From the IMG/VR virus record IMGVR_UViG_3300043409_000433, positions 1 through 35,362 of that record: DNA of 35,362 nucleotides. One strand, written 5' to 3'. The DNA comes from a virus. Each line of letters starts with the position of its first letter. Positions within the stretch are counted from its first letter, which is position 1. The position numbers and the translations under genes are program-made. Positions 7,694 through 27,544 of this stretch are shown piece by piece. A model generated the notes under the pieces. The model saw nothing but the letters and a program-made list of their open reading frames with translations, made no database searches and was not told the DNA's origin.

Positions 7694-9628
7694 ATGGCTG
7701 ACAATCCGTTTGCTCAATACGCACCTAAGCAAGAGGCTGCGGCAAATCCATTTGCTCAATACGCAACCACTTCGGCAGCTAGTGAGATTCCCGCAGCTCG
7801 CCGTAGTTATTCATTAGGTGAAGTACCATTAGAAGCCGGTAAAAATTTACCTGCAAGCGCTGGTCAGTTTGTCAGCGGTGTGGTGCAGGCTGTCACAAGC
7901 CCCTTACAAACCCTAACAGGTCTTCTTGATTTGGGTGCAGGTGCTTTGCGCAACTCGTTACCTAAAAGCGTGTCGGGCTTTATCGACAAATTTGACTCTG
8001 ACCCTGAGGCTGCTCAACGTGCAAGCGAAGTGGCGTCTGCTGTTGGTGGCATGTACAAAGATCGATACGGCAGCTACGATGCGATCAAACGCACATTTGC
8101 TGAAGACCCCGTGGGTACTGCTGCTGACTTGTCTACCTTGCTGACAGGTGGTGGCGCGGCAGCCAGTAAGTTGGGTGCTACTCAAACTGGTGCTGCGGTG
8201 TCAAAAGCCGGAGCCATGATCAACCCAATGCGCCCAATTGCACCGGTAATTGAAGCCCCATTTAAGTTGGCGGGTAAAGGTATTAGCGCTGTCTATAACG
8301 CCCTTGATCCCAAATCTACAGCATATCTGACTGCCGCGGAAGGCCGTGGCCCAGCGATTGTCAATGCACTTCGTGGTCAAACTGAAATTGTGCCAGGCAG
8401 CCTGCCTACCGCCGCGCAAGCCGCTGCCCCCGTGGGGGCCACTCGGTTTTCCGCAATGGGTGAATCGGCTGCCCGTACTACACCAACACCATTCTTTGAA
8501 CGCGAGCAAGCTCAAAAAGCAGCTCAATTGGCCGCGGTACAGACGGTTGGTAAAACACCAGCGGAACTTAAAGCTGCTGAAGCTGTTCGTAGTGCCACAG
8601 CCAAAGAGTTGTACGGTATTTCTGATCAAGCCTTAGTTCCTGCTGACAAAACATTTACTGGTTTGTTAGATCGTCCATCGATGGACAAAGTAATTGCGCG
8701 TGCAAGCGAGTTGGCTGCTGAGAAAGGTATCCCTTTCCAGATTGGTCAAAACCGCCCAGCTCAGACAATCCCATCGGCTATTTTGAATGCCGAAGGTATG
8801 CCTATGGGTGTAACTACAATCCCCGGAGAAGTGGCCAAGTACCCTGGTAGCAGTCTTCACATGATGAAGATGGCATTTGATGACCTGATCAAAAACCCTG
8901 AGCGTTTTGGCATCGGTGCAAACGAAGTGGGTGCAATCAATTCAACTCGCGGTAAGTTTTTAAATTGGGTTGAAGATAAAGCTCCTGATTACAAAACAGC
9001 ACGGGAAACCTTTGCCGCTCAAAGCAAGCCAATTAACCAAATGCAAGTGGGTCAGTTCCTTGAAGGTAAACTGACTCCTGCGCTTGGTGAAGAGACAGCT
9101 CGATTGCGTGCTGCTGGTTATGCTGGCGCTCTTGATCAAGCTCCCGGCACAATCAAACGTGCTACTGGCCAATCTCGATTCGATGAACTAAGTCAAGTCA
9201 TGACACCAGATCAGATCAAAGTTCTTGAGTCTGTGCGTGCCGATTTAGCCCGAGCCAAGTTAGCTGAATCCCAAGCTGGAGCAGCTCGTGGCGCTGGCCC
9301 AAATGTGAATCTGATGGGCACTGAGACACTGGGTAACGTGCGTGCTCCCAACTTCATCAACAACGTGACCACCGTGGCCAACGACATCCTGCGCCGGTTG
9401 CAAGGTAAGTTGGATCAGAAGTTGGCAATCGAGCTGGCTGCCGAAATGCTTGATCCTGCGGCAGCCGCCGCGGCGCTTGAAAAAGCTCTTGCCCGTCAAG
9501 CTAAGGGTGAAAAAATGGCAGAACCTTTTAGGAAAACTGGCAAAGCGGCATCCACTGTTCTTCGCACCCCCGCAACGATTAACATGCTGGCCCCACAATC
9601 TGAAAATCAAAATGCATTGGCGCAATAA
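7694..9628 (+). CDS. Putative injection/internal virion protein (gp16 position)
   Basis: 644 residues, similar to the 609 of P22 gp16. The N-terminus carries the motif NPFAQYA twice (residues 4-10 and 18-24), a short repeat often seen at the start of large phage internal proteins. The body is Ala-rich and helical, with hydrophobic small-residue stretches around 45-75 and 140-180 that could insert in membranes. It starts immediately after the previous stop and its TAA overlaps the next ATG. A role in DNA delivery across the envelope is inferred from context. Confidence 0.68.
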   Translation: MADNPFAQYAPKQEAAANPFAQYATTSAASEIPAARRSYSLGEVPLEAGKNLPASAGQFVSGVVQAVTSPLQTLTGLLDLGAGALRNSLPKSVSGFIDKFDSDPEAAQRASEVASAVGGMYKDRYGSYDAIKRTFAEDPVGTAADLSTLLTGGGAAASKLGATQTGAAVSKAGAMINPMRPIAPVIEAPFKLAGKGISAVYNALDPKSTAYLTAAEGRGPAIVNALRGQTEIVPGSLPTAAQAAAPVGATRFSAMGESAARTTPTPFFEREQAQKAAQLAAVQTVGKTPAELKAAEAVRSATAKELYGISDQALVPADKTFTGLLDRPSMDKVIARASELAAEKGIPFQIGQNRPAQTIPSAILNAEGMPMGVTTIPGEVAKYPGSSLHMMKMAFDDLIKNPERFGIGANEVGAINSTRGKFLNWVEDKAPDYKTARETFAAQSKPINQMQVGQFLEGKLTPALGEETARLRAAGYAGALDQAPGTIKRATGQSRFDELSQVMTPDQIKVLESVRADLARAKLAESQAGAARGAGPNVNLMGTETLGNVRAPNFINNVTTVANDILRRLQGKLDQKLAIELAAEMLDPAAAAAALEKALARQAKGEKMAEPFRKTGKAASTVLRTPATINMLAPQSENQNALAQ

Positions 9629-17230: not shown

Positions 17231-17673
17231 TTGAGTGCCTCAACACCGGCAAACAACTGTGCATAGTGCTCGGGCTTTACATCGTTGATGTTCTGGTAAC
17301 CCAGACCGGTCAAGACGTTTTGGATCTGCGATCCCTTGGCAGCGCCCAGTGCCTTGTATGAGGCCATCACATAGTCGATCAAGCCTTTGCCGTCAGAGAA
17401 CGGAGCACCAGCTGTTTGAACAGCAACAACAGCTTCCGTTTTAGGCCAGAAAGGGGCATCGGGCATAGCTGGGGCGGCAACCACTGGAGCTGGTGCAACT
17501 TGTACCACAGGGGCTGGTGTTGGCGCAACAGGTGCAACTGGTGCTACATTCATCGCCTTTCCGATTGTGTCAAGACTTTGTCTAGTCATCATCGGTATCA
17601 TGCCTTCGCAGATATTACGGTTAAGTGATTCGATAGCAGCAGTCAGCGCTTCAATCTTGAGTTCTAGTGACAT
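17227..17673 (-). CDS. Hypothetical protein with Pro/Ala/Val linker
   Basis: 148 residues in three parts: an N-terminal helix (about 1-40) beginning MSLELKIEALTAAIESLN, a low-complexity linker rich in VAPVAPTPAP (about 43-75), and a conserved-looking C-terminal helical domain (about 85-148). The linker suggests a two-domain adaptor. It overlaps the regulator gene upstream by 23 bases and the DUF2800 gene by 4, so all three are probably co-translated. No function can be named; an accessory role in recombination is possible from position. Confidence 0.65.
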   Translation of the reverse strand: MSLELKIEALTAAIESLNRNICEGMIPMMTRQSLDTIGKAMNVAPVAPVAPTPAPVVQVAPAPVVAAPAMPDAPFWPKTEAVVAVQTAGAPFSDGKGLIDYVMASYKALGAAKGSQIQNVLTGLGYQNINDVKPEHYAQLFAGVEALK

Positions 17674-17854
17674 ATAACGATTCCTTTGGGATTACGGGGG
17701 GTTGAATTACAAGGCGGTCAGAATTGAACGCTTGCACTATCTCACGAAGAACATCAGACGGCTGTCCGTACTTTTCTGCTCTGCGGTGAAATGCTTTGTG
17801 ATCATTAGGCGTAAGCCTAACGGTCAAAAATTTGGTGAGTGGTTTGGTTGCCAT
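17651..17854 (-). CDS. Ribbon-helix-helix DNA-binding protein
   Basis: 67 residues, with AGGAAAA ribosome site. The beta strand KFLTVRLTPNDHKAF (8-22) followed by two helices (about 17-30 and 33-46, with PSDVLREIVQAF) is the pattern of the CopG/Arc family, whose dimers bind palindromic operators. It is the first gene of the replication operon and sits just downstream of a promoter that contains an ACAC-type palindrome, so autoregulation is likely. It could control other phage promoters too. Confidence 0.75.
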   Translation of the reverse strand: MATKPLTKFLTVRLTPNDHKAFHRRAEKYGQPSDVLREIVQAFNSDRLVIQPPVIPKESLYVTRTQD

Positions 17855-20498: not shown

Positions 20499-20517
20499 AA
20501 GCCCCGCAAGGGGCTTT
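20499..20517. terminator. Bidirectional terminator between convergent genes
   Basis: A 7-bp perfect stem AAGCCCC/GGGGCTT with GCAA loop starts 2 bases after the primase stop and touches the stop codon of the convergent gene. The symmetric A/T flanks allow function in both directions. A second, weaker hairpin (CCCCG/CGGGG, about 20464-20479) lies in the last codons of the primase gene. Confidence 0.7.
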
Positions 20518-20698
20518 ATCGTTTCATGTTGCGTATGTAAACAGCAAAACTGTCAATGGTGTCACGGCCAAATACTTTCATTTTCTCAATTTCTTTGGCC
20601 ACTTCTTCTATTGCGTCATTGCGGATCTTTTCGCTTACTTCGTTAACTTGCACCGTTTGACGTTTGCGCCAGCCTAGAGCTTTTGTCCATGTGTTCAT
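20516..20698 (-). CDS. Small conserved-type phage protein
   Basis: 60 residues. The C-terminal half (VFGRDTIDSFAVYIRNMKR) looks like a pattern found in small phage proteins of proteobacteria, but the role is unknown. The protein is highly charged and helical (EKIRNDAIEEVAKEIEKM). Start overlaps the upstream stop by 4 bases (ATGA). It is the last gene of the leftward accessory operon, ending at the bidirectional terminator. Confidence 0.65.
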   Translation of the reverse strand: MNTWTKALGWRKRQTVQVNEVSEKIRNDAIEEVAKEIEKMKVFGRDTIDSFAVYIRNMKR

Positions 20699-20889
20699 AA
20701 ATAATCCCGTGGTTTTGGTTTATTAAGTTCAATGATTGTTGGGTTAATTAGGTTTTGCGCGTATCTAAGCGCCCGTTTTTCAGCATCGTCGCCAATGGTG
20801 TATTTTTCAACTACCCAGTGAAAGTTATACCAATACTTAGATTCAACAACCCATCCGTCATCGATGTCTTTTCTTATGCGTACTCTCAT
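20695..20889 (-). CDS. Small hypothetical protein
   Basis: 64 residues. It begins MRVRIRKDIDDGWVVESKYW, with several Trp/Tyr residues in the first half suggesting a small beta sheet, then a helix and a Lys/Pro-rich end. No motif recognised. It is linked by 4-base ATGA overlaps to the genes on both sides. Base composition is like the main phage genome, unlike the GC-rich genes further upstream. Confidence 0.6.
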   Translation of the reverse strand: MRVRIRKDIDDGWVVESKYWYNFHWVVEKYTIGDDAEKRALRYAQNLINPTIIELNKPKPRDYL

Positions 20890-21017
20890 AATGGCGCGTC
20901 CTCAAAGTTGTCAGGGTTGAACTTAGGCACTTTATTGCCTTTGTCCTTGGGGTTTGGGAATGGTGGAAATGGCCAAACGGTCATCGGTTGGTTGGAAGCC
21001 TTAGTCAATAGTTTCAT
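20886..21017 (-). CDS. 43-residue Pro-rich hypothetical protein
   Basis: Reads MKLLTKASNQPMTVWPFPPF at the start and is rich in Pro, Asn and Lys; it is probably unstructured. The stop overlaps the next start (ATGA). A GGAAT sequence precedes the ATG. Its first residues KLLTKASNQPMTV copy the last residues of the upstream helix-turn-helix protein (KQLTKAPNQPMTV), because a 41-bp direct repeat underlies both. This suggests the two genes were joined or separated by a recombination event. Confidence 0.55.
   Translation of the reverse strand: MKLLTKASNQPMTVWPFPPFPNPKDKGNKVPKFNPDNFEDAPL
20975..21015. repeat. 41-bp direct repeat, copy A
   Basis: It matches 21051-21091 at 37 of 41 positions, 76 bases apart. 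Here it encodes the N-terminus of the 43-residue protein. A shorter element AGTCAATAG recurs between the copies (21031-21039). The repeat pair lies at the edge where composition changes from the ordinary phage level to the GC-rich block. Confidence 0.8.
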
Positions 21018-21048
21018 GGTTGGATTCCTTAGTCAATAGTTCGATTCC

Positions 21049-21342
21049 TTAAACGGTCATCGGCTGGTTGGGAGCTTTAGTCAATTGTTTCTTAGGCCGT
21101 CCGGCGCTCCTTGTGGGGGCGGCGGCGTCCGGCGGCGTGAGCGCGGCCAGCACGTCGGGCGCGATTGCCTCGAGCGTGCCGAGCACGGCCAGCAGCTGCA
21201 CGGCGGCGGCGCTGGGCGCTCGTTGGCCAGCGGCCCACTTGCGGAAAGTGAAAACGGGCACGCCTAGCAGGCCGGCGGCGCGTGCTTCGCTCAGGCCGCG
21301 GCGCTCGGTCATGGCCAGCAAGTCGGTTTTGAATTGTGTCAT
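21049..21342 (-). CDS. Helix-turn-helix transcriptional regulator
   Basis: 97 residues from ATG at 21342, chosen because AAGGATCCC lies directly upstream; the longer frame would need a start inside the terminator region. Residues about 15-50 hold a helix-turn-helix with SEARAAGLLGVPVFTFRKWA followed by GQRAPSAAAVQLL, the XRE/antitoxin-like pattern in which the FRKW helix contacts DNA. The C-terminus is Pro/Ala-rich, ending in basic GRPKKQ. It is a candidate repressor for the palindromes at 24.3-24.9 kb. It lies downstream of a terminator, so it may have its own promoter or be made by read-through. Confidence 0.72.
   Translation of the reverse strand: MTQFKTDLLAMTERRGLSEARAAGLLGVPVFTFRKWAAGQRAPSAAAVQLLAVLGTLEAIAPDVLAALTPPDAAAPTRSAGRPKKQLTKAPNQPMTV
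21051..21091. repeat. 41-bp direct repeat, copy B
   Basis: Second copy of the repeat at 20975-21015, here encoding the C-terminal residues of the helix-turn-helix protein in the same reading direction. Immediately beyond it (from about 21092) the GC-rich block begins. Confidence 0.8.
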
Positions 21343-21364
21343 GGGATCCTTGAAAAGTAGGGTT

Positions 21365-21391
21365 AAAAAAGCCCCGGCCACTGGGCCGAGG
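21365..21391 (-). terminator. Rho-independent terminator inside the leftward operon
   Basis: On the minus strand an 8-bp stem with one G-T wobble (CCTCGGCC/GGCCGGGG) and CAGT loop is followed by C and six Ts. It separates the 19-residue peptide gene from the helix-turn-helix gene and would lower or stop expression of the four genes beyond. Confidence 0.65.
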
Positions 21392-21407
21392 TAGAGTAAG
21401 GCAGGGT

Positions 21408-21467
21408 TTATAGATCCCAAGCGGCAGCGATCAGGGCCACGATGGCCGCGGCGATCAGGGCGCTCAT
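21408..21467 (-). CDS. 19-residue hydrophobic peptide
   Basis: Reads MSALIAAAIVALIAAAWDL and ends with TAA. Its ATG overlaps the stop of the preceding gene as ATGA, and a terminator follows 16 bases after it. Almost the whole chain could be one short membrane helix. Frames this short arise by chance, but the coupling and the clean end before a terminator support it. Confidence 0.35.
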   Translation of the reverse strand: MSALIAAAIVALIAAAWDL

Positions 21468-21637
21468 GCTGGGGCCGTTAATCGGGCCTCAGCTCGGCCC
21501 TGCTCGATCAGGCGGCGGGCCTCGGCGCGAAAATCCAAGGATTCTGATTCCAGCATGACGCGCAGTGACTGGGCAGGAATTAGATCCCGTTCAAATTGAA
21601 AACCCGCGTTAATGTATTCGGCTTCGGTGTAGTTCAT
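21464..21637 (-). CDS. Small hypothetical protein
   Basis: 57 residues from ATG 21637 (MNYTEAEYINAGFQFERDLI), chosen because it overlaps the upstream TGA by 4 bases; the frame extends 5 codons further. Charged, probably helical in the second half (ESLDFRAEARRLIEQGRAEA). No family recognised. Member of the GC-rich accessory operon. Confidence 0.55.
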   Translation of the reverse strand: MNYTEAEYINAGFQFERDLIPAQSLRVMLESESLDFRAEARRLIEQGRAEARLTAPA

Positions 21638-21885
21638 CGCTCGATCTCCCATAGGTTAACGATTTCGTCAATTGTGGCCAGGGCTTCGGCGGCGGCCCCT
21701 CGGCGTTGCTTCGCGTTCATTGTGTCGCTCGTGCTCTCGGCTATTGCTTCCAGGGCGGCCACGGCCTGCCCTAGTGCCCGCTGCAGGTCGGCGATCCGTG
21801 CAAATTGCCGGGCAGTACCCGGGAACCCTTCCGAGTAGGCCAGCGCTTCGGCCTCGGTGGCCGTTAAATTTTCAAGGTTTATCAT
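21634..21885 (-). CDS. Small helical hypothetical protein
   Basis: 83 residues, starting 4 bases after the stop of the Cys-rich gene. Mostly Ala/Glu-rich helices (LQRALGQAVAALEAIAES and AAAEALATIDEIVNLWEIE). The 3' end overlaps the next gene as ATGA. No motif identified; possibly a small regulator or inhibitor as is common for early phage operons, but this is only by context. Confidence 0.55.
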   Translation of the reverse strand: MINLENLTATEAEALAYSEGFPGTARQFARIADLQRALGQAVAALEAIAESTSDTMNAKQRRGAAAEALATIDEIVNLWEIER

Positions 21886-21889
21886 AATT

Positions 21890-22570
21890 TCAGGCTTTCA
21901 AAATAGGAATGACGCGACGGGCCAGCGCATCGGTTACCCGTGCCCGCGATCCGTGCGCTCGAAACCCAATGATCACGCGGCGATCAGCACGGGCACAAAG
22001 CCCGCAGGTCGCGCACGTTATATCCTCGCGGGTTTGTGCTGGGCATACGATGATTGTCCGGCCCTCTGGGGTTTCCGTCTTCTCCGGCGTATCCATGGGC
22101 ACGATGCAGGTCAGGGGCGCTCGGGATACGTTGGCCAGCGCGTCGGCCTCTCCAGCATCGTCGGCGCTTAGGTTCACCGTGAAGCCCCAGTCAGTGGCGC
22201 ATTGTGCCCAATAGAGCGCTTCTGGGGTTTTCTTGTGGGTGTACGTAAACCCGCGGCGGCCACTGTTGGCCCGTACGATTTCACCCAGGGCGGCGGCGTC
22301 TACCTCTTCGCCGGCGCCGGGTAGATCCCCGGCCACGTTGAACCGCCACAGTTGGCCAGCAGGCAGGGCGGCCACTGATTCGCAAAGCTGGGCGAGCGTG
22401 CCCCCTCGCTGCGCTACTCGATCCCAGCTCATGCGGGTGTAGTAGTCTTCGGCGTAGCAGTCGGCCCGGTAATGGGGGCAGCTCTGGGGGCAGGTTTCCC
22501 GCTGGGAATAAGTCACCGGCAGCGGGCCGGTTTTGCTGTTCGCGGATTTTAAAATGAAGTGATATTTCAT
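21890..22570 (-). CDS. Cysteine-rich conserved phage/plasmid protein of unknown function
   Basis: 226 residues, the largest gene in this operon. Cysteines cluster as ETCPQSCPHYRADCYAED (residues about 25-42) and CATCGLC (about 186-192), suitable for zinc or an iron-sulfur cluster. Between them lie the patterns LWRFNVAGDLPG and RRGFTYTHKK. I recall similar proteins, many without names, on phages and plasmids; some are described as uncharacterised DUFs. It is coupled (ATGA) to the acidic protein upstream. It may be an enzyme, but no active site can be assigned. Confidence 0.7.
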   Translation of the reverse strand: MKYHFILKSANSKTGPLPVTYSQRETCPQSCPHYRADCYAEDYYTRMSWDRVAQRGGTLAQLCESVAALPAGQLWRFNVAGDLPGAGEEVDAAALGEIVRANSGRRGFTYTHKKTPEALYWAQCATDWGFTVNLSADDAGEADALANVSRAPLTCIVPMDTPEKTETPEGRTIIVCPAQTREDITCATCGLCARADRRVIIGFRAHGSRARVTDALARRVIPILKA

Positions 22571-22731
22571 TGCTCATCGCTCCCGTCGTCGGTGTCGGCT
22601 TCGGGTTCGCTCTCATCGTACGGGGCCTCGGGATCCCCAGGCAGGTAGCGCAGCGAGGTTAGCAGGCGGCGCTTAGTTGCTCGGTCTTCACTGGCCAGGG
22701 CTTCGGCCTCATCGTCGTATTCGTAGTGCAT
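22567..22731 (-). CDS. Highly acidic 54-residue protein
   Basis: Reads MHYEYDDEAEALASEDRATK at the start and ends in a D/E-rich tail. Eighteen of 54 residues are Asp or Glu against five Lys/Arg. An AGGT site precedes the ATG, and the stop overlaps the Cys-rich gene start as ATGA. The charge would suit a DNA mimic that blocks a host DNA-binding protein, but small acidic proteins have many roles. No family recognised. Confidence 0.55.
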   Translation of the reverse strand: MHYEYDDEAEALASEDRATKRRLLTSLRYLPGDPEAPYDESEPEADTDDGSDEQ

Positions 22732-22734
22732 GGT

Positions 22735-23013
22735 TTACCTCACATTGATAAGTTGAAAGTGGGAGCGCAGGAACCGGGCCGGATCCGTTGCGTTGAGCTC
22801 GGCGGCCACGGTGTCAGCGGATAGATCCTTGATCCAGCCGTGGCCGTACCAGTGGCCAGCGTTACCCTGCTTGTCCAGGGTGAACCAATTCTCTCCCCAT
22901 TGAACCTCAAGGAAGGTGTGCCCAGCGTCGGCCAGCTCGGCGCAGCGCTTGACAATCTGGGCTTTGCTGGGCCTGCGGCCCTTGAACTCGATCAGCTTAG
23001 GTTGGTGATCCAT
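22735..23013 (-). CDS. Hypothetical protein, 92 residues
   Basis: Starts ATG 23013 after GGGGCAGG. Contains a basic helix near the N-terminus (GRRPSKAQIVKRCAEL) and an aromatic-rich middle (EVQWGENWFTLDKQGNAGHW), suggesting a small alpha/beta fold. It ends 3 bases before the acidic gene. I recognise no family. Confidence 0.6.
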   Translation of the reverse strand: MDHQPKLIEFKGRRPSKAQIVKRCAELADAGHTFLEVQWGENWFTLDKQGNAGHWYGHGWIKDLSADTVAAELNATDPARFLRSHFQLINVR

Positions 23014-23023
23014 GGCCTGCCCC

Positions 23024-23323
23024 TTATGCTTTGCGAGCGCTCACGCGCACGGTATAGAACGCGGCGCCGGTGGCCGTATGCGCCGTGATCAGTTGACGCG
23101 ATGGGGAAAAGTGATCAGCGATGGCGTGCCAGTCGGTTGTATCTTTCCCAGGGCAGTAACTCACCGCGGCCCGGTGCTGGGTTCCTTCAATGGCGGCCTG
23201 CCCTGCTTCGATCAGCACGGCCTTCAATTGATCCTCTTCGGCCTTCAGGTTGGCCAGCTGGGCCTTGACTAGTGCCAGGCGATCAACGGCGGCGGCCAGC
23301 AGTACGGGGTTTTCGTTTTTCAT
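23024..23323 (-). CDS. Conserved-type phage protein, 99 residues
   Basis: The N-terminal third is a helix rich in Leu/Ala/Lys (VKAQLANLKAEEDQLKAVLI), and the C-terminal part has HRAAVSYCPGKDTTDWHAIA and SRQLITAHT. I recall similar small proteins in many phages and mobile elements, near recombination or anti-host genes, with no settled function. Its ATG overlaps the upstream TAA by one base. Confidence 0.62.
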   Translation of the reverse strand: MKNENPVLLAAAVDRLALVKAQLANLKAEEDQLKAVLIEAGQAAIEGTQHRAAVSYCPGKDTTDWHAIADHFSPSRQLITAHTATGAAFYTVRVSARKA

Positions 23324-23610
23324 TATGCGGCCCTCTCGATAGCAGCACGGGCGAGCTTCACGGCGTCAACGATCTCGCCGGTTTTCTCAAGATCTGGGCA
23401 GTGCTCGAGCATGGCCAGCAAAGCGGCGAGTAGGTCAGGGGCGGCGGCCATCAGGCGGGCATTGTGCAGGGCGTCGGCGCTCGTGCTGCGCTTGTCTCCC
23501 TTGACTTTGGCCAGGGGCGCGAAACCCCCAGATTGTGCAGTGACGTTGAATTCTCCGCTTCGGATAGCAGGCCGAGCGAACCAGGGGCCGGGGGTGTGTT
23601 TCAGTTTCAT
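23323..23610 (-). CDS. Widespread small phage protein with HTPGPW and NARLMAAAPDLL motifs
   Basis: 95 residues with CTGGAGAA ribosome site. It opens with HTPGPW (residues 5-10) and has HNARLMAAAPDLLAALL (about 49-65), a pair of motifs shared by a very common family of short phage and prophage proteins of unknown role. Coupled to the next gene by a one-base overlap. Its leader holds tandem GTTAC repeats. Confidence 0.7.
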   Translation of the reverse strand: MKLKHTPGPWFARPAIRSGEFNVTAQSGGFAPLAKVKGDKRSTSADALHNARLMAAAPDLLAALLAMLEHCPDLEKTGEIVDAVKLARAAIERAA

Positions 23611-23640
23611 GATTTGATTCTCCAGGGTTACGGTTACGGG

Positions 23641-23781
23641 TTACAGTGAAAACAGAACGATGAGGACAAAACCCAACGCGGCCAGCAGGGCAGCAGCGCC
23701 GGCCACAATGGTTAGGTCGCTGGGTTCCTCAGGCAGTGGCGCAGGGTTTAATTCGATGTAGTGCAGGTTGTGCTTGTTCAT
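23641..23781 (-). CDS. 46-residue single-pass membrane protein
   Basis: Reads MNKHNLHYIELNPAPLPEEP, then a single hydrophobic helix at about residues 24-46 (TIVAGAAALLAALGFVLIVL) reaching the C-terminus. Ribosome site CCGGAGAA is well spaced. Topology would leave the polar N-terminus on one side of the inner membrane. Possible roles include superinfection exclusion or lysis control; none can be shown here. Confidence 0.6.
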   Translation of the reverse strand: MNKHNLHYIELNPAPLPEEPSDLTIVAGAAALLAALGFVLIVLFSL

Positions 23782-23832
23782 GGTGTGATTCTCCGGTTAT
23801 GGTGGCCCCAGCTTTCACCGGGGCCGGTTTAT

Positions 23833-24024
23833 TTATCGGGTGAGGGCTTCGCGCTCGGCGGCGGCCAGCTCGGCCAGTGCGCGATCAATGACGATGCGTA
23901 GAGCTTCAACGGTTGACGCAGCACGCGCTTCGCGCTCGATTGTGCTCAGGGCCAGCTTGCGAGCTTTGGCGATCTCGTTGGCCTTGTGCAGTGCAATCAG
24001 GGTGGCGGGGTTATTCAAGTTCAT
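23833..24024 (-). CDS. Small helical hypothetical protein
   Basis: 63 residues after a GGGAGAG ribosome site. Nearly all helix-forming (IAKARKLALSTIEREARAAS, then IDRALAELAAAEREALT). Stops 51 bases before the next gene. Starts 3 bases after the stop of the first gene in the operon. No family recognised. Confidence 0.58.
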   Translation of the reverse strand: MNLNNPATLIALHKANEIAKARKLALSTIEREARAASTVEALRIVIDRALAELAAAEREALTR

Positions 24025-24027
24025 GAT

Positions 24028-24228
24028 TCACTCTCCCACGTACATCAGGCAACCGTTGCGCACGGTCAACTCGCCGCTACTGCCTGCGCCTAGATCCTTG
24101 ATCAGCTCGAGGATCTCGCGCTGCGTGCGCTTGCTGCCTGCACGGTGAATAATGGCCACGGTGCGCAGCAGGGCGCTTCTACCGTGGGGCTTTGCTCTCT
24201 CGATCTGGGCTTGTTCAAATTTTGTCAT
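24028..24228 (-). CDS. Small hypothetical protein, first gene of the leftward accessory operon
   Basis: 66 residues, ribosome site TGGAGAA. Basic and possibly winged-helix-like: HGRSALLRTVAIIHRAGSKR then TQREILELIKDLGAG and a final strand pair. It is the first gene behind the near-consensus leftward promoter at 24288-24315, with a leader of about 50 bases containing GTTAC repeats. A DNA-binding role is possible but unproved. Confidence 0.6.
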   Translation of the reverse strand: MTKFEQAQIERAKPHGRSALLRTVAIIHRAGSKRTQREILELIKDLGAGSSGELTVRNGCLMYVGE

Positions 24229-24287
24229 GATGATTTCTCCAGGTTACAGTTACAAATTACGGGCCGGTTTTGTGTGCCGGTGAATGA

Positions 24288-24315
24288 ATTGTAACCCAGT
24301 GGGTGAGCTTGTCAA
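24288..24315 (-). promoter_or_regulatory. Leftward promoter with an operator in its spacer
   Basis: Minus strand: TTGACA (24310-24315), 16-base spacer, TACAAT (24288-24293). The palindrome ACCCACTGGGT (minus strand reading) fills 24294-24304 of the spacer and touches the -10 box, so a bound protein would block RNA polymerase. It drives the accessory operon that begins at 24228. Confidence 0.75.
24294..24304. promoter_or_regulatory. Operator palindrome 1 (ACCCAGTGGGT)
   Basis: Member of the seven-copy ACCC-N3-GGGT family; lies in the spacer of the leftward promoter. Confidence 0.65.
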
Positions 24316-24351
24316 GCACAATCGATAAAATATTTACTAGGTGCTTTCCCT

Positions 24352-24362
24352 ACCCTCTGGGT
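24352..24362. promoter_or_regulatory. Operator palindrome 2 (ACCCTCTGGGT)
   Basis: Second copy, 58 bases from the first; flanked by pyrimidine-rich sequence and not placed in a visible promoter. Confidence 0.5.
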
Positions 24363-24378
24363 TTCCCTGCTTCCCTTG

Positions 24379-24394
24379 GTGCGTCAATTGTGAC
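24379..24394. repeat. 16-bp inverted repeat, left arm
   Basis: GTGCGTCAATTGTGAC is exactly complementary in reverse to 24478-24493, with 83 bases between. The arms contain CAATTG. Function unknown; a protein-binding site pair, cruciform or origin element are possible. Confidence 0.8.
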
Positions 24395-24477
24395 TTGTGG
24401 AAGGAAGAGGGATTCTGGGATTCCTGATTTCTTGTGCCTTTTGAAAAAAGGTGAATCAGCCCCCTCGCCTGCGCGAT

Positions 24478-24493
24478 GTCACAATTGACGCAC
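24478..24493. repeat. 16-bp inverted repeat, right arm
   Basis: GTCACAATTGACGCAC, perfect reverse complement of 24379-24394. It precedes the cluster of four operator palindromes by 25 bases. Confidence 0.8.
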
Positions 24494-24518
24494 TGGCCAG
24501 CTTTCCCCTGCTCCCGTT

Positions 24519-24614
24519 ACCCGCTGGGTGATTCCCTCACCCGCTGGGTTCGCGTGCCCATGGCCAGCGATTCCCTCACCCGCTGGGTGCAGTGAACCCG
24601 TTCACCCGCTGGGT
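24519..24614. promoter_or_regulatory. Cluster of four identical operator palindromes (ACCCGCTGGGT)
   Basis: Copies at 24519-24529, 24539-24549, 24578-24588 and 24604-24614, all with the same GCT centre. Start-to-start distances are 20, 39 and 26 bases, so the first two lie about two helical turns apart. Two copies are followed by the same TCGCGTG and two are preceded by TTCCCTC, pointing to local duplication. Confidence 0.65.
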
Positions 24615-24688
24615 TCGCGTGCTCAGTGGCCTGCGCAGTGGATCACGGCGGCCAGGTGTCACGATGGCCAGCGATCCGGCGGCGCTGG

Positions 24689-24730
24689 GATCCCGATGGA
24701 TCCGCGGCCTGCATCGATCCCGATGGATCC
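24689..24730. repeat. Direct repeat of a GATCC-rich 15-mer
   Basis: GATCCCGATGGATCC occurs at 24689-24703 and 24716-24730, 27 bases apart, followed by a degenerate third unit. GATC sites are dense here, so Dam-type methylation could matter if the host has it. Confidence 0.7.
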
Positions 24731-24884
24731 CGATAAATCCCGCGGCCCGCGATGGCCGGCGGCGCGAAGCAGGATCCGTGCCAGTGTTCCGATGGGGCCG
24801 GGTAGGGCCGAAGGCCGAAGGGGCCCAGACTGGGAGGTATCACGAACAATTTTTTTATTTTTTCAAAGAATCCGTTAACCCGTT

Positions 24885-24927
24885 ACCCAATGGGTTCACT
24901 TGACACCATAGATACTTCTGCTACCAT
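24885..24927 (+). promoter_or_regulatory. Rightward promoter with adjacent operator palindrome
   Basis: Operator ACCCAATGGGT (24885-24895) ends 4 bases before a perfect TTGACA -35 box (24900-24905); 16 bases later comes TACCAT (24922-24927), a 4-of-6 -10 box. It would drive the terminase and virion genes. The layout mirrors the leftward promoter. Confidence 0.5.
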
Positions 24928-25489
24928 CACAACCACTATGGAATCATTAAATCCCGATCCTGTAGGCGCAAATGTCACAATGACCAACGACAACAAAATC
25001 GAGCTACCAGACTGGCTAGACCCTGCGCCTCGCACACTTGCCAAATCACCCCCTGCGGTGAAGTCGTTGGTATTGGCGCAATATGAGCATGTATTCATGC
25101 GAGTCATCGATGAAGTGGCCCATGGCAAGTCTTTGTCGCAGGTGCTCAATGACGATCAGCGACACATCGACTACAACGACTTTTACCGGTGGATCAAAAA
25201 AGATCCAACCCGTAAGCAATTGTTTGATGAAGCCCAGGAGATGCGCACCGAGTTTATGGCCGGCGAGATCATAGAGATTGCCGATGCCGATGACACACTC
25301 GAAGATGTGAACAGATCAAGACTGAAGATCGATACACGCAAATGGCTCATGGGAGCACACAATCGCAAGAAGTACGGAGCGACCACTAACATTGAGATGA
25401 GTGGTGGGATCTCGATACTGGCTGCGCTTGAAGCGGCTAACGCTCGGGTGATTGACTTGGCCGATGTAACCGATGTGCAGGAGAAGTAA
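24890..25489 (+). CDS. terS: Terminase small subunit
   Basis: Longest frame is 199 residues. None of the possible starts (24890, 24938, 24980) has a ribosome site. If the promoter with its -10 box at 24922 is used, the first ATG lies upstream of the transcript, and 24938 or 24980 (MTNDNKIELPDW) is the real start. The C-terminal half has the pattern KIDTRKWLMGAHNRKKYG (residues about 144-161), common in small terminase subunits that recognise viral DNA and regulate the large subunit. Overlaps terL by one base. P22-type phages often carry the packaging start in or near this gene. Confidence 0.82.
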   Translation: MGSLDTIDTSATITTTMESLNPDPVGANVTMTNDNKIELPDWLDPAPRTLAKSPPAVKSLVLAQYEHVFMRVIDEVAHGKSLSQVLNDDQRHIDYNDFYRWIKKDPTRKQLFDEAQEMRTEFMAGEIIEIADADDTLEDVNRSRLKIDTRKWLMGAHNRKKYGATTNIEMSGGISILAALEAANARVIDLADVTDVQEK

Positions 25490-27171: not shown

Positions 27172-27314
27172 TGCCACTCGTCAAATCAAAATCACCCGAA
27201 GCCTTCCGCAAAAACGTCAAAGCTGAAGTGGCTGCTGGCAAGCCAGTCAAGCAAGCCGTGGCCATTGCCTACAGTGTCAAGCGCGAAGCGCAGAAACCAA
27301 TGAAGAAAAAATGA
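27171..27314 (+). CDS. Small basic phage protein (47 residues)
   Basis: Reads MPLVKSKSPEAFRKNVKAEV then a conserved-looking AAGKPVKQAVAIAYSVKRE and a Lys-rich end. The pattern SPEAFRKNV...A.GKP.KQAVAIAYS is common in short phage and prophage proteins. Possibly nucleic-acid binding because of its charge. Linked by one- and four-base overlaps to its neighbours. Confidence 0.75.
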   Translation: MPLVKSKSPEAFRKNVKAEVAAGKPVKQAVAIAYSVKREAQKPMKKK

Positions 27315-27544
27315 AAGCACTGCAAGACTGCATCATCATTGAGCGCGATGTGGACAAGCACCCCTTGTTTGTATTGCCTCAGACTGAAAAGCTAGGTACT
27401 GGCATTGCAATTTCAATTGGCCCAAAATGCCTAGACATCAAACTTGGTGACCATGTATACTTCGACGTAGGGCAAGAATTTAAGCAAGATGGCAAAGAAT
27501 ATGTCGTCATGCGTGAGCCTCATATTTTAGGGGTTTTGGAATGA
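27311..27544 (+). CDS. GroES-like co-chaperonin (Cpn10 fold)
   Basis: 77 residues. The order of segments fits the Cpn10 barrel: IIIERD at 8-13, a loop, GTGIAISIGP at 29-38, LGDHVYFD at 45-52, DGKEYVVMREPHILGVLE to the end. The region after IIIERD is where the mobile loop that docks on GroEL would be; it is short here (VDKHPLFVLPQTEKLG). Phage GroES-like proteins help the host chaperonin fold virion proteins, as T4 gp31 does for its capsid protein. Just upstream of the portal gene with an ATGA overlap. Confidence 0.72.
   Translation: MKALQDCIIIERDVDKHPLFVLPQTEKLGTGIAISIGPKCLDIKLGDHVYFDVGQEFKQDGKEYVVMREPHILGVLE

Follow-up and report, generated by a model that had tools for sequence, protein, structure and literature searches.

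The Palindrome Region and Its Genomic Setting

The window, by which we mean the whole stretch of DNA that was analysed, is an entire virus record of 35,362 bases from a freshwater-type virus of bacteria. Its nearest named relatives are the phage DSL-LC05 (proposed 'Luchaoviridae'; 76% TerL identity), which is known from a metagenome only, and a Manatee Spring podovirus. A coat protein gene is apparently split over both ends of the record, which looks like a circular or permuted genome that was cut open; a search for a terminal repeat at the window ends found none. Rfam RNA families and tRNAs were also sought in the window, and none were detected.

The region studied here consists of ~660 bp of non-coding DNA, in which seven palindromes sit between the first leftward gene (24028-24228) and the gene of the terminase small subunit, terS. 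To the right lie terS (Sf6-like), terL, and the gene for a P22-like portal, and a GroES-like (Cpn10) gene is found between terminase and portal at 27311-27544. The leftward side starts with small early genes, including one for a helix-turn-helix (HTH) protein, followed by a divergent pair of replication units. The rightward unit encodes a Prim-Pol/DUF3987 primase, and the leftward unit encodes a ribbon-helix-helix (RHH) protein, an exonuclease, an ssDNA-binding protein, a polymerase (PolB-type exonuclease match), and an SNF2 helicase. The features that bear on the regulation of this region are listed in Table 1.

Table 1. Positions of the observed and proposed regulatory features in the window.
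Feature	Position	Strand	Basis or remark
Terminase small subunit gene, terS	24938..25489	+	PHROG 1482 and Pfam Sf6_terminase; start inferred from relatives
Leftward early operon under P_early, includes the regulator gene	20516..24228	-	Gene direction; convergent with the primase gene
P_early, TTGACA-16-TACAAT	24288..24315	-	Layout repeated in 41 distinct contexts of relatives
Operator 1 (candidate)	24294..24304	.	Fills the spacer of P_early and abuts its -10
Operator 2 (candidate)	24352..24362	.	Distance to operator 1 is ~59 bp in many relatives
Operator 3 (candidate)	24519..24529	.	Middle cluster
Operator 4 (candidate)	24539..24549	.	Middle cluster
Operator 5 (candidate)	24578..24588	.	Middle cluster
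Operator 6 (candidate)	24604..24614	.	Middle cluster
Operator 7 (candidate)	24885..24895	.	Upstream of P_late; centre 48 bp from the terS ATG
P_late, TTGACA-16-TACCAT with TG extension	24900..24927	+	-10-to-ATG spacing kept in 76/77 relatives
Intrinsic terminator directly before the regulator gene	21372..21391	-	Like hairpin in relatives
Proposed regulator, 97-aa Xre-type HTH protein	21049..21342	-	Recognition helix 30-38 with K35; covariation with sites
RHH protein, disfavoured as binder	17651..17854	-	No diagnostic column

A Repeated Palindrome Conserved in Related Viruses

Seven copies of ACCCNNNGGGT lie in the region (positions in Table 1), where an earlier note on this DNA had described them and with the three-base centres listed there. 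That note had noticed no copy elsewhere in the window; this did not hold, as exact copies are also present at 8106, 19485, 20056, and 28121. The window thus contains 11 copies, compared with 0.26 expected from shuffles and a maximum of 2 in 100 shuffles, which rules out a chance origin of the palindromes. The four additional copies also exceed the shuffle expectation in number, but they are all intragenic and scattered, and we claim no role for them. Among all 4-3-4 palindromes in the window, the ACCC type is the most repeated, by more than twofold.

The centre had been described as the sole variable part of the site. It does vary, but within limits: R-N-Y predominates among 453 distinct sites drawn from 90 related regions (~97% at either flank of the centre), and for this reason we write the candidate operator as ACCC-RNY-GGGT. 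In the same set, neighbouring sites show a weak 10-bp periodicity (R ~0.26). Because this inter-site phasing is weak, we do not claim a looping geometry.

The palindromes recur in dozens of related virus contigs, in 5-11 copies upstream of terS. A TerL-based search gathered 80 related contigs, the relatives being metagenomic contigs, and in about half of these the 5-11 ACCC sites are located 600-1300 bp before terL, while the remainder have none or few. Counting over the whole genome and its relatives, which had been proposed as a check, therefore found the palindromes both above chance and conserved. Spacing inside the middle cluster varies among relatives. DSL-LC05 carries six ACCC sites together with a similar gene order and a homolog of the regulator. 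All long records with the site cluster have the replication module and the RHH gene in common, and nearly always the HTH gene as well; the site-free long records (G025, G026, G030, G033, and MW202483) are devoid of the HTH gene, the RHH gene, and a matching replication module.

The Early Leftward Promoter and the Terminator Before the Proposed Regulator Gene

A near-consensus leftward promoter with copy 1 in its spacer had been proposed, and we find it as described at 24315-24288 (P_early). A site placed between TTGACA and the -10 box, and abutting the latter, was found in 41 distinct contexts in relatives. In several other relatives, the early site is instead directly upstream of the -35 box and shares the first T of TTGACA (GGGTTGACA). 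A site within the -35/-10 spacer is a repressor arrangement and suggests that the early promoter would be repressed through it, whereas a site directly upstream of -35 is ambiguous and could activate. Ahead of the first leftward gene, the early leader (24229-24290) contains a small hairpin (CCGGCACACAAAACCGG) as well as recurring GTAAC words, both of which are widespread in relatives.

The gene of the proposed regulator belongs to the leftward operon, ~3 kb downstream of P_early, and is directly preceded by a predicted intrinsic terminator. Of the 97 corresponding upstream regions in relatives, 76 have a hairpin with a T run, whereas at control positions (~90 regions) such a hairpin was found in 0-1 regions upstream and 5-7 downstream. 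With a terminator at this place, expression of the regulator would require either read-through or a promoter that overlaps the hairpin, and the terminator may act as a timer that delays the regulator.

The Late Rightward Promoter and the Helical Phasing of Its Candidate Operator

As claimed previously, copy 7 ends at 24895, 4 bases ahead of a TTGACA box at 24900 that faces the terminase genes. In 76 of 77 distinct relatives, 9-10 nt separate the end of the associated TAnnnT box from the terS ATG, and the TG extension is present in 56 of these 77. Shine-Dalgarno-like words before terS are found in just four of them, and the other 73 have no ribosome-binding site. Given this proximity of the -10 box to the ATG and the scarcity of Shine-Dalgarno words, the terS mRNA is probably leaderless or nearly so, with the start at 24938. 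The CACT word before the ATG served as search anchor and hence is no evidence in itself. Another ATG, at 24890, which falls within copy 7, is not the terS start.

The distance from the centre of the nearest exact site to the terS ATG takes only certain values in relatives: 48-50, 57-61, 68-70, or 78 bp, with three outliers at 86-102 bp, of which the distances 90 and 102 pass over a nearer one-mismatch site (e.g., CCCCAATGGGT). The intervals 51-56 and 62-67 are empty. At a period of 10.5 bp, the Rayleigh R is 0.82-0.86 across all de-duplication levels tried; with 33 sequences of <65% identity, R is 0.85 (Z ~24), and the observed value was not attained in any of 5000 smoothed nulls. The terS tree calls for a minimum of 26 switches between turn classes, none of them out of phase, and for the two main turn classes at least 10-12 changes are forced by well supported branches. 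The window (L004) and its close relative L005 are themselves one turn apart. Because the turn classes are wide, the claim of phasing leans also on the two empty intervals. This hopping of the late operator by whole turns would be a clean natural example of a face-of-helix constraint.

The last site is always upstream of the late -35 box and overlaps neither -35 nor -10. Since it moves by whole turns and always keeps to this side of the promoter, its geometry suggests a contact with RNA polymerase, and thus activation of the late promoter from the upstream site; phased repression by looping is another possibility. In some phages the late -35 box is near consensus and would need little help, which counts against activation. 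Just before the late operator is a stretch at 24841-24867 (CACGAACAATTTTTTTATTTTTTCAAA) that is kept in relatives and may be a UP-like element or a DNA-unwinding stretch.

Covariation of the Proposed Regulator with Its Candidate Sites

The earlier note had named the HTH protein, together with the RHH protein, as a candidate binder of the palindromes. The domain of the HTH protein is of the HTH_31/Xre type, and the structure prediction, which is confident for residues 1-68, places K35 in helix 30-38. Two long records, G015 and G019, carry both the HTH and the RHH genes and have almost no ACCC sites; their intergenic regions contain AGCC-N3-GGCT sites and ACCC/AGCC hybrids, the AGCC-type sites lying at unchanged positions, 60 and 48 bp from the terS ATG. 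One residue of the recognition helix follows this difference when the HTH proteins are aligned: all ACCC-type phages have K there, G015 has H, and G019 has N. Three or more ACCC sites accompany 68 distinct K-type regulator sequences, but not one of the seven distinct sequences with H or N. For nine K-type sequences the count of exact sites is below three; most of these come from contigs truncated before the region or have sites in which the outer A/T is degenerate (e.g., G023). A relaxed search recovered sites of the form XCC-RNY-GGX', in which K goes with X = C, and H/N mostly with G or with a mixture.

This residue also stands out within the protein. Among 13 invariant columns of the HTH protein, K35 is the sole one changed in both AGCC-type long genomes, compared with 0 of 17 invariant columns in the RHH protein and 0 of 42 in TerS. 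In the larger shared proteins, a few columns are also changed in the AGCC-type genomes, as divergence predicts. Two near-identical contigs, L041 and L043, lack ACCC sites and have A at the K35 position, in a helix that is altered elsewhere too (GVTKSALYAW). ACANTGT occurs 10 times in L041, where 3.7 copies would be expected, and seven of the copies fall at -1303 to -575 relative to terL; a third operator code, ACANTGT with A, is only suggested by this.

Protein and sites thus appear to have changed together across related viruses, although the independent swaps of specificity are few, with two or three events. This covariation of the recognition helix favours the HTH protein as the binder and does not extend to the RHH protein. 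The matched pairs would form a natural series of regulator and operator variants, in which it can be tested how a regulator with many sites shifts its specificity while its function is kept.

A Proposed Early/Late Switch and Its Alternatives

We consider it probable that the ACCC-RNY-GGGT palindromes are operators of the 21049-21342 protein, through which it would repress the early promoter and activate the late one. Early in infection, host RNA polymerase would fire the leftward promoter, and the terminator before the regulator gene would hold back synthesis of the regulator. Once accumulated, the regulator would bind operator 1 between -35 and -10 and shut the leftward promoter. Binding of operator 7 upstream of the late -35, on a helix face that allows contact with RNA polymerase, would activate the rightward late promoter and lead to expression of the terminase and virion genes. 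A probable role of the middle cluster is to aid cooperative loading or looping. The first reading of the locus had left a choice between an immunity and an early/late switch; conservation, promoter geometry, and phasing all point to the latter.

The same protein and sites could act as a pure repressor of both divergent promoters, in a Cro-like manner or for copy control, the phasing then serving looping. Many sites in one region, an early site in the promoter spacer, and the weak 10-bp inter-site periodicity would all fit such a role, but we think it unlikely, as the late site always stays clear of both -35 and -10 and moves only by whole turns just upstream, which is the pattern of an activator; moreover, the late genes would have to be on while the early protein is abundant. 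More doubtful still is a reading as a replication origin, in which the repeats would serve as iterons, the HTH protein would be the initiator or would regulate the origin, and the AT-rich stretch at 24841-24867 would melt. An origin would account for ~660 bp of non-coding DNA in which repeats, an AT-rich stretch, and other elements, among them an inverted repeat at 24379-24493 and CCCCCTCGCCTGCGCGATGTCAC, are conserved in many relatives. However, the sites keep constant places at the promoters and are in phase with the late start, the spacing of the cluster varies, and known iteron initiators are far larger than this regulator. An origin, or another regulator, may nonetheless share this region with the switch.

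Binding by the RHH protein is very improbable. Its gene does accompany the site cluster in all long records and is missing from those that lack the sites and the module, but this co-occurrence is common to the whole replication module. Furthermore, the sites of G015 became AGCC, yet its RHH beta-strand, KFLTVRLT, is identical to that of the window, and no column of the RHH protein is diagnostic. We give the least credence to a lysogeny immunity region with operators of a prophage repressor, even though divergent promoters with multiple operators resemble such regions and an early gene of DSL-LC05 is annotated as 'repressor protein C.' Immunity is unlikely because no tyrosine or serine integrase (PF00589, PF00239) was found in the window and 14 long related records (15 in total), although both families were found in control genomes, and no long repressor gene was seen. 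The earlier note was therefore right about the missing integrase, but not about the missing partner repressor, since a candidate regulator is encoded inside the leftward operon. A scan of this regulator against the genomes of 84,980 prokaryote species gave two weak partial matches and no host, which also argues against a prophage repressor.

Relation to Known Regulators

MqsA was the first match in a PDB profile search with the regulator (3fmy, E 9e-5), a significant similarity of the domains in which K35 aligned to MqsA Arg101. Foldseek with the predicted regulator model returned HigA2 (5jaa, 5j9i) and MqsA, the best fold match being to HigA2-type Xre antitoxins, with weak E-values (best 0.02). 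MqsA (YgiT) binds ACCT-N3-AGGT through Asn97 and Arg101 (PMC4901048; also PMC4894380, PMC5422877), a 4-3-4 palindrome like ACCC-N3-GGGT here, and Arg101 corresponds to K35. The two differ in that the virus has K for R, CCC/GGG for CCT/AGG, a phage gene, and many candidate operators. In addition, the N-terminal zinc domain of MqsA is lacking in the viral protein, which has 97 aa, an HTH from ~residue 13, and no Cys-rich N-terminus. A toxin gene was sought beside the regulator: the four nearest genes are without a Pfam match and no HigB-like neighbour was found; an unknown toxin may still be among them.

The regulator p4 of phage phi29, whose promoters are A2c/A2b and A3, represses early promoters (title of reference 30 in PMC11476376). 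It is an early gene product, and its four sites lie between the start of the early A2c and that of the late A3; at A3 it binds upstream of RNA polymerase and stabilises it (PMC11476376). It has a DNA-binding motif of its own, the N-hook (title of reference 29 in PMC11476376). What the two would share is several sites for a single early protein, set between divergent promoters for early and late genes, with the binding here being putative; the differences are the Xre-type protein and its 11-bp ACCC-RNY-GGGT sites, of which there are about seven. PDB searches with the regulator listed MqsA and HigA2, and no p4. By analogy, the nearest mechanism would be the early/late switch of phi29 p4, with an unrelated DNA-binding domain of the HigA/MqsA type.

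In phage lambda, the small HTH proteins CI and Cro act through multiple operators on divergent promoters. Our case differs in that no integrase was found in the 15 records, the decision would be early/late and not lysis/lysogeny, and one regulator is seen and not two. Promoters, repressors, and palindromes go unmentioned in the DSL-LC05 paper, and literature searches among open-licence papers found no account of such a switch. The broader reading, which we give an even chance, is that of an undescribed switch spanning the lineage, in which an antitoxin-type Xre protein turned into an early repressor and late activator. At least two rewritings of its code (ACCC with K, AGCC with H or N, and perhaps ACANTGT with A) would have taken place, each affecting the sites of a genome as one set, while the late operator hops by whole turns and the regulator's own gene is timed by a terminator. 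Such a switch would give a common group of uncultivated aquatic phages a transcription programme that is simple and can be tested.

Other Elements of the Non-coding Region

Between operators 2 and 3 lies a perfect 16-bp inverted repeat (24379-24394 and 24478-24493, 83 nt apart), which may belong to an origin or be the site of a second regulator. The same may apply to CCCCCTCGCCTGCGCGATGTCAC (24459-24482), which is kept in many relatives, as is the AT palindrome before it.
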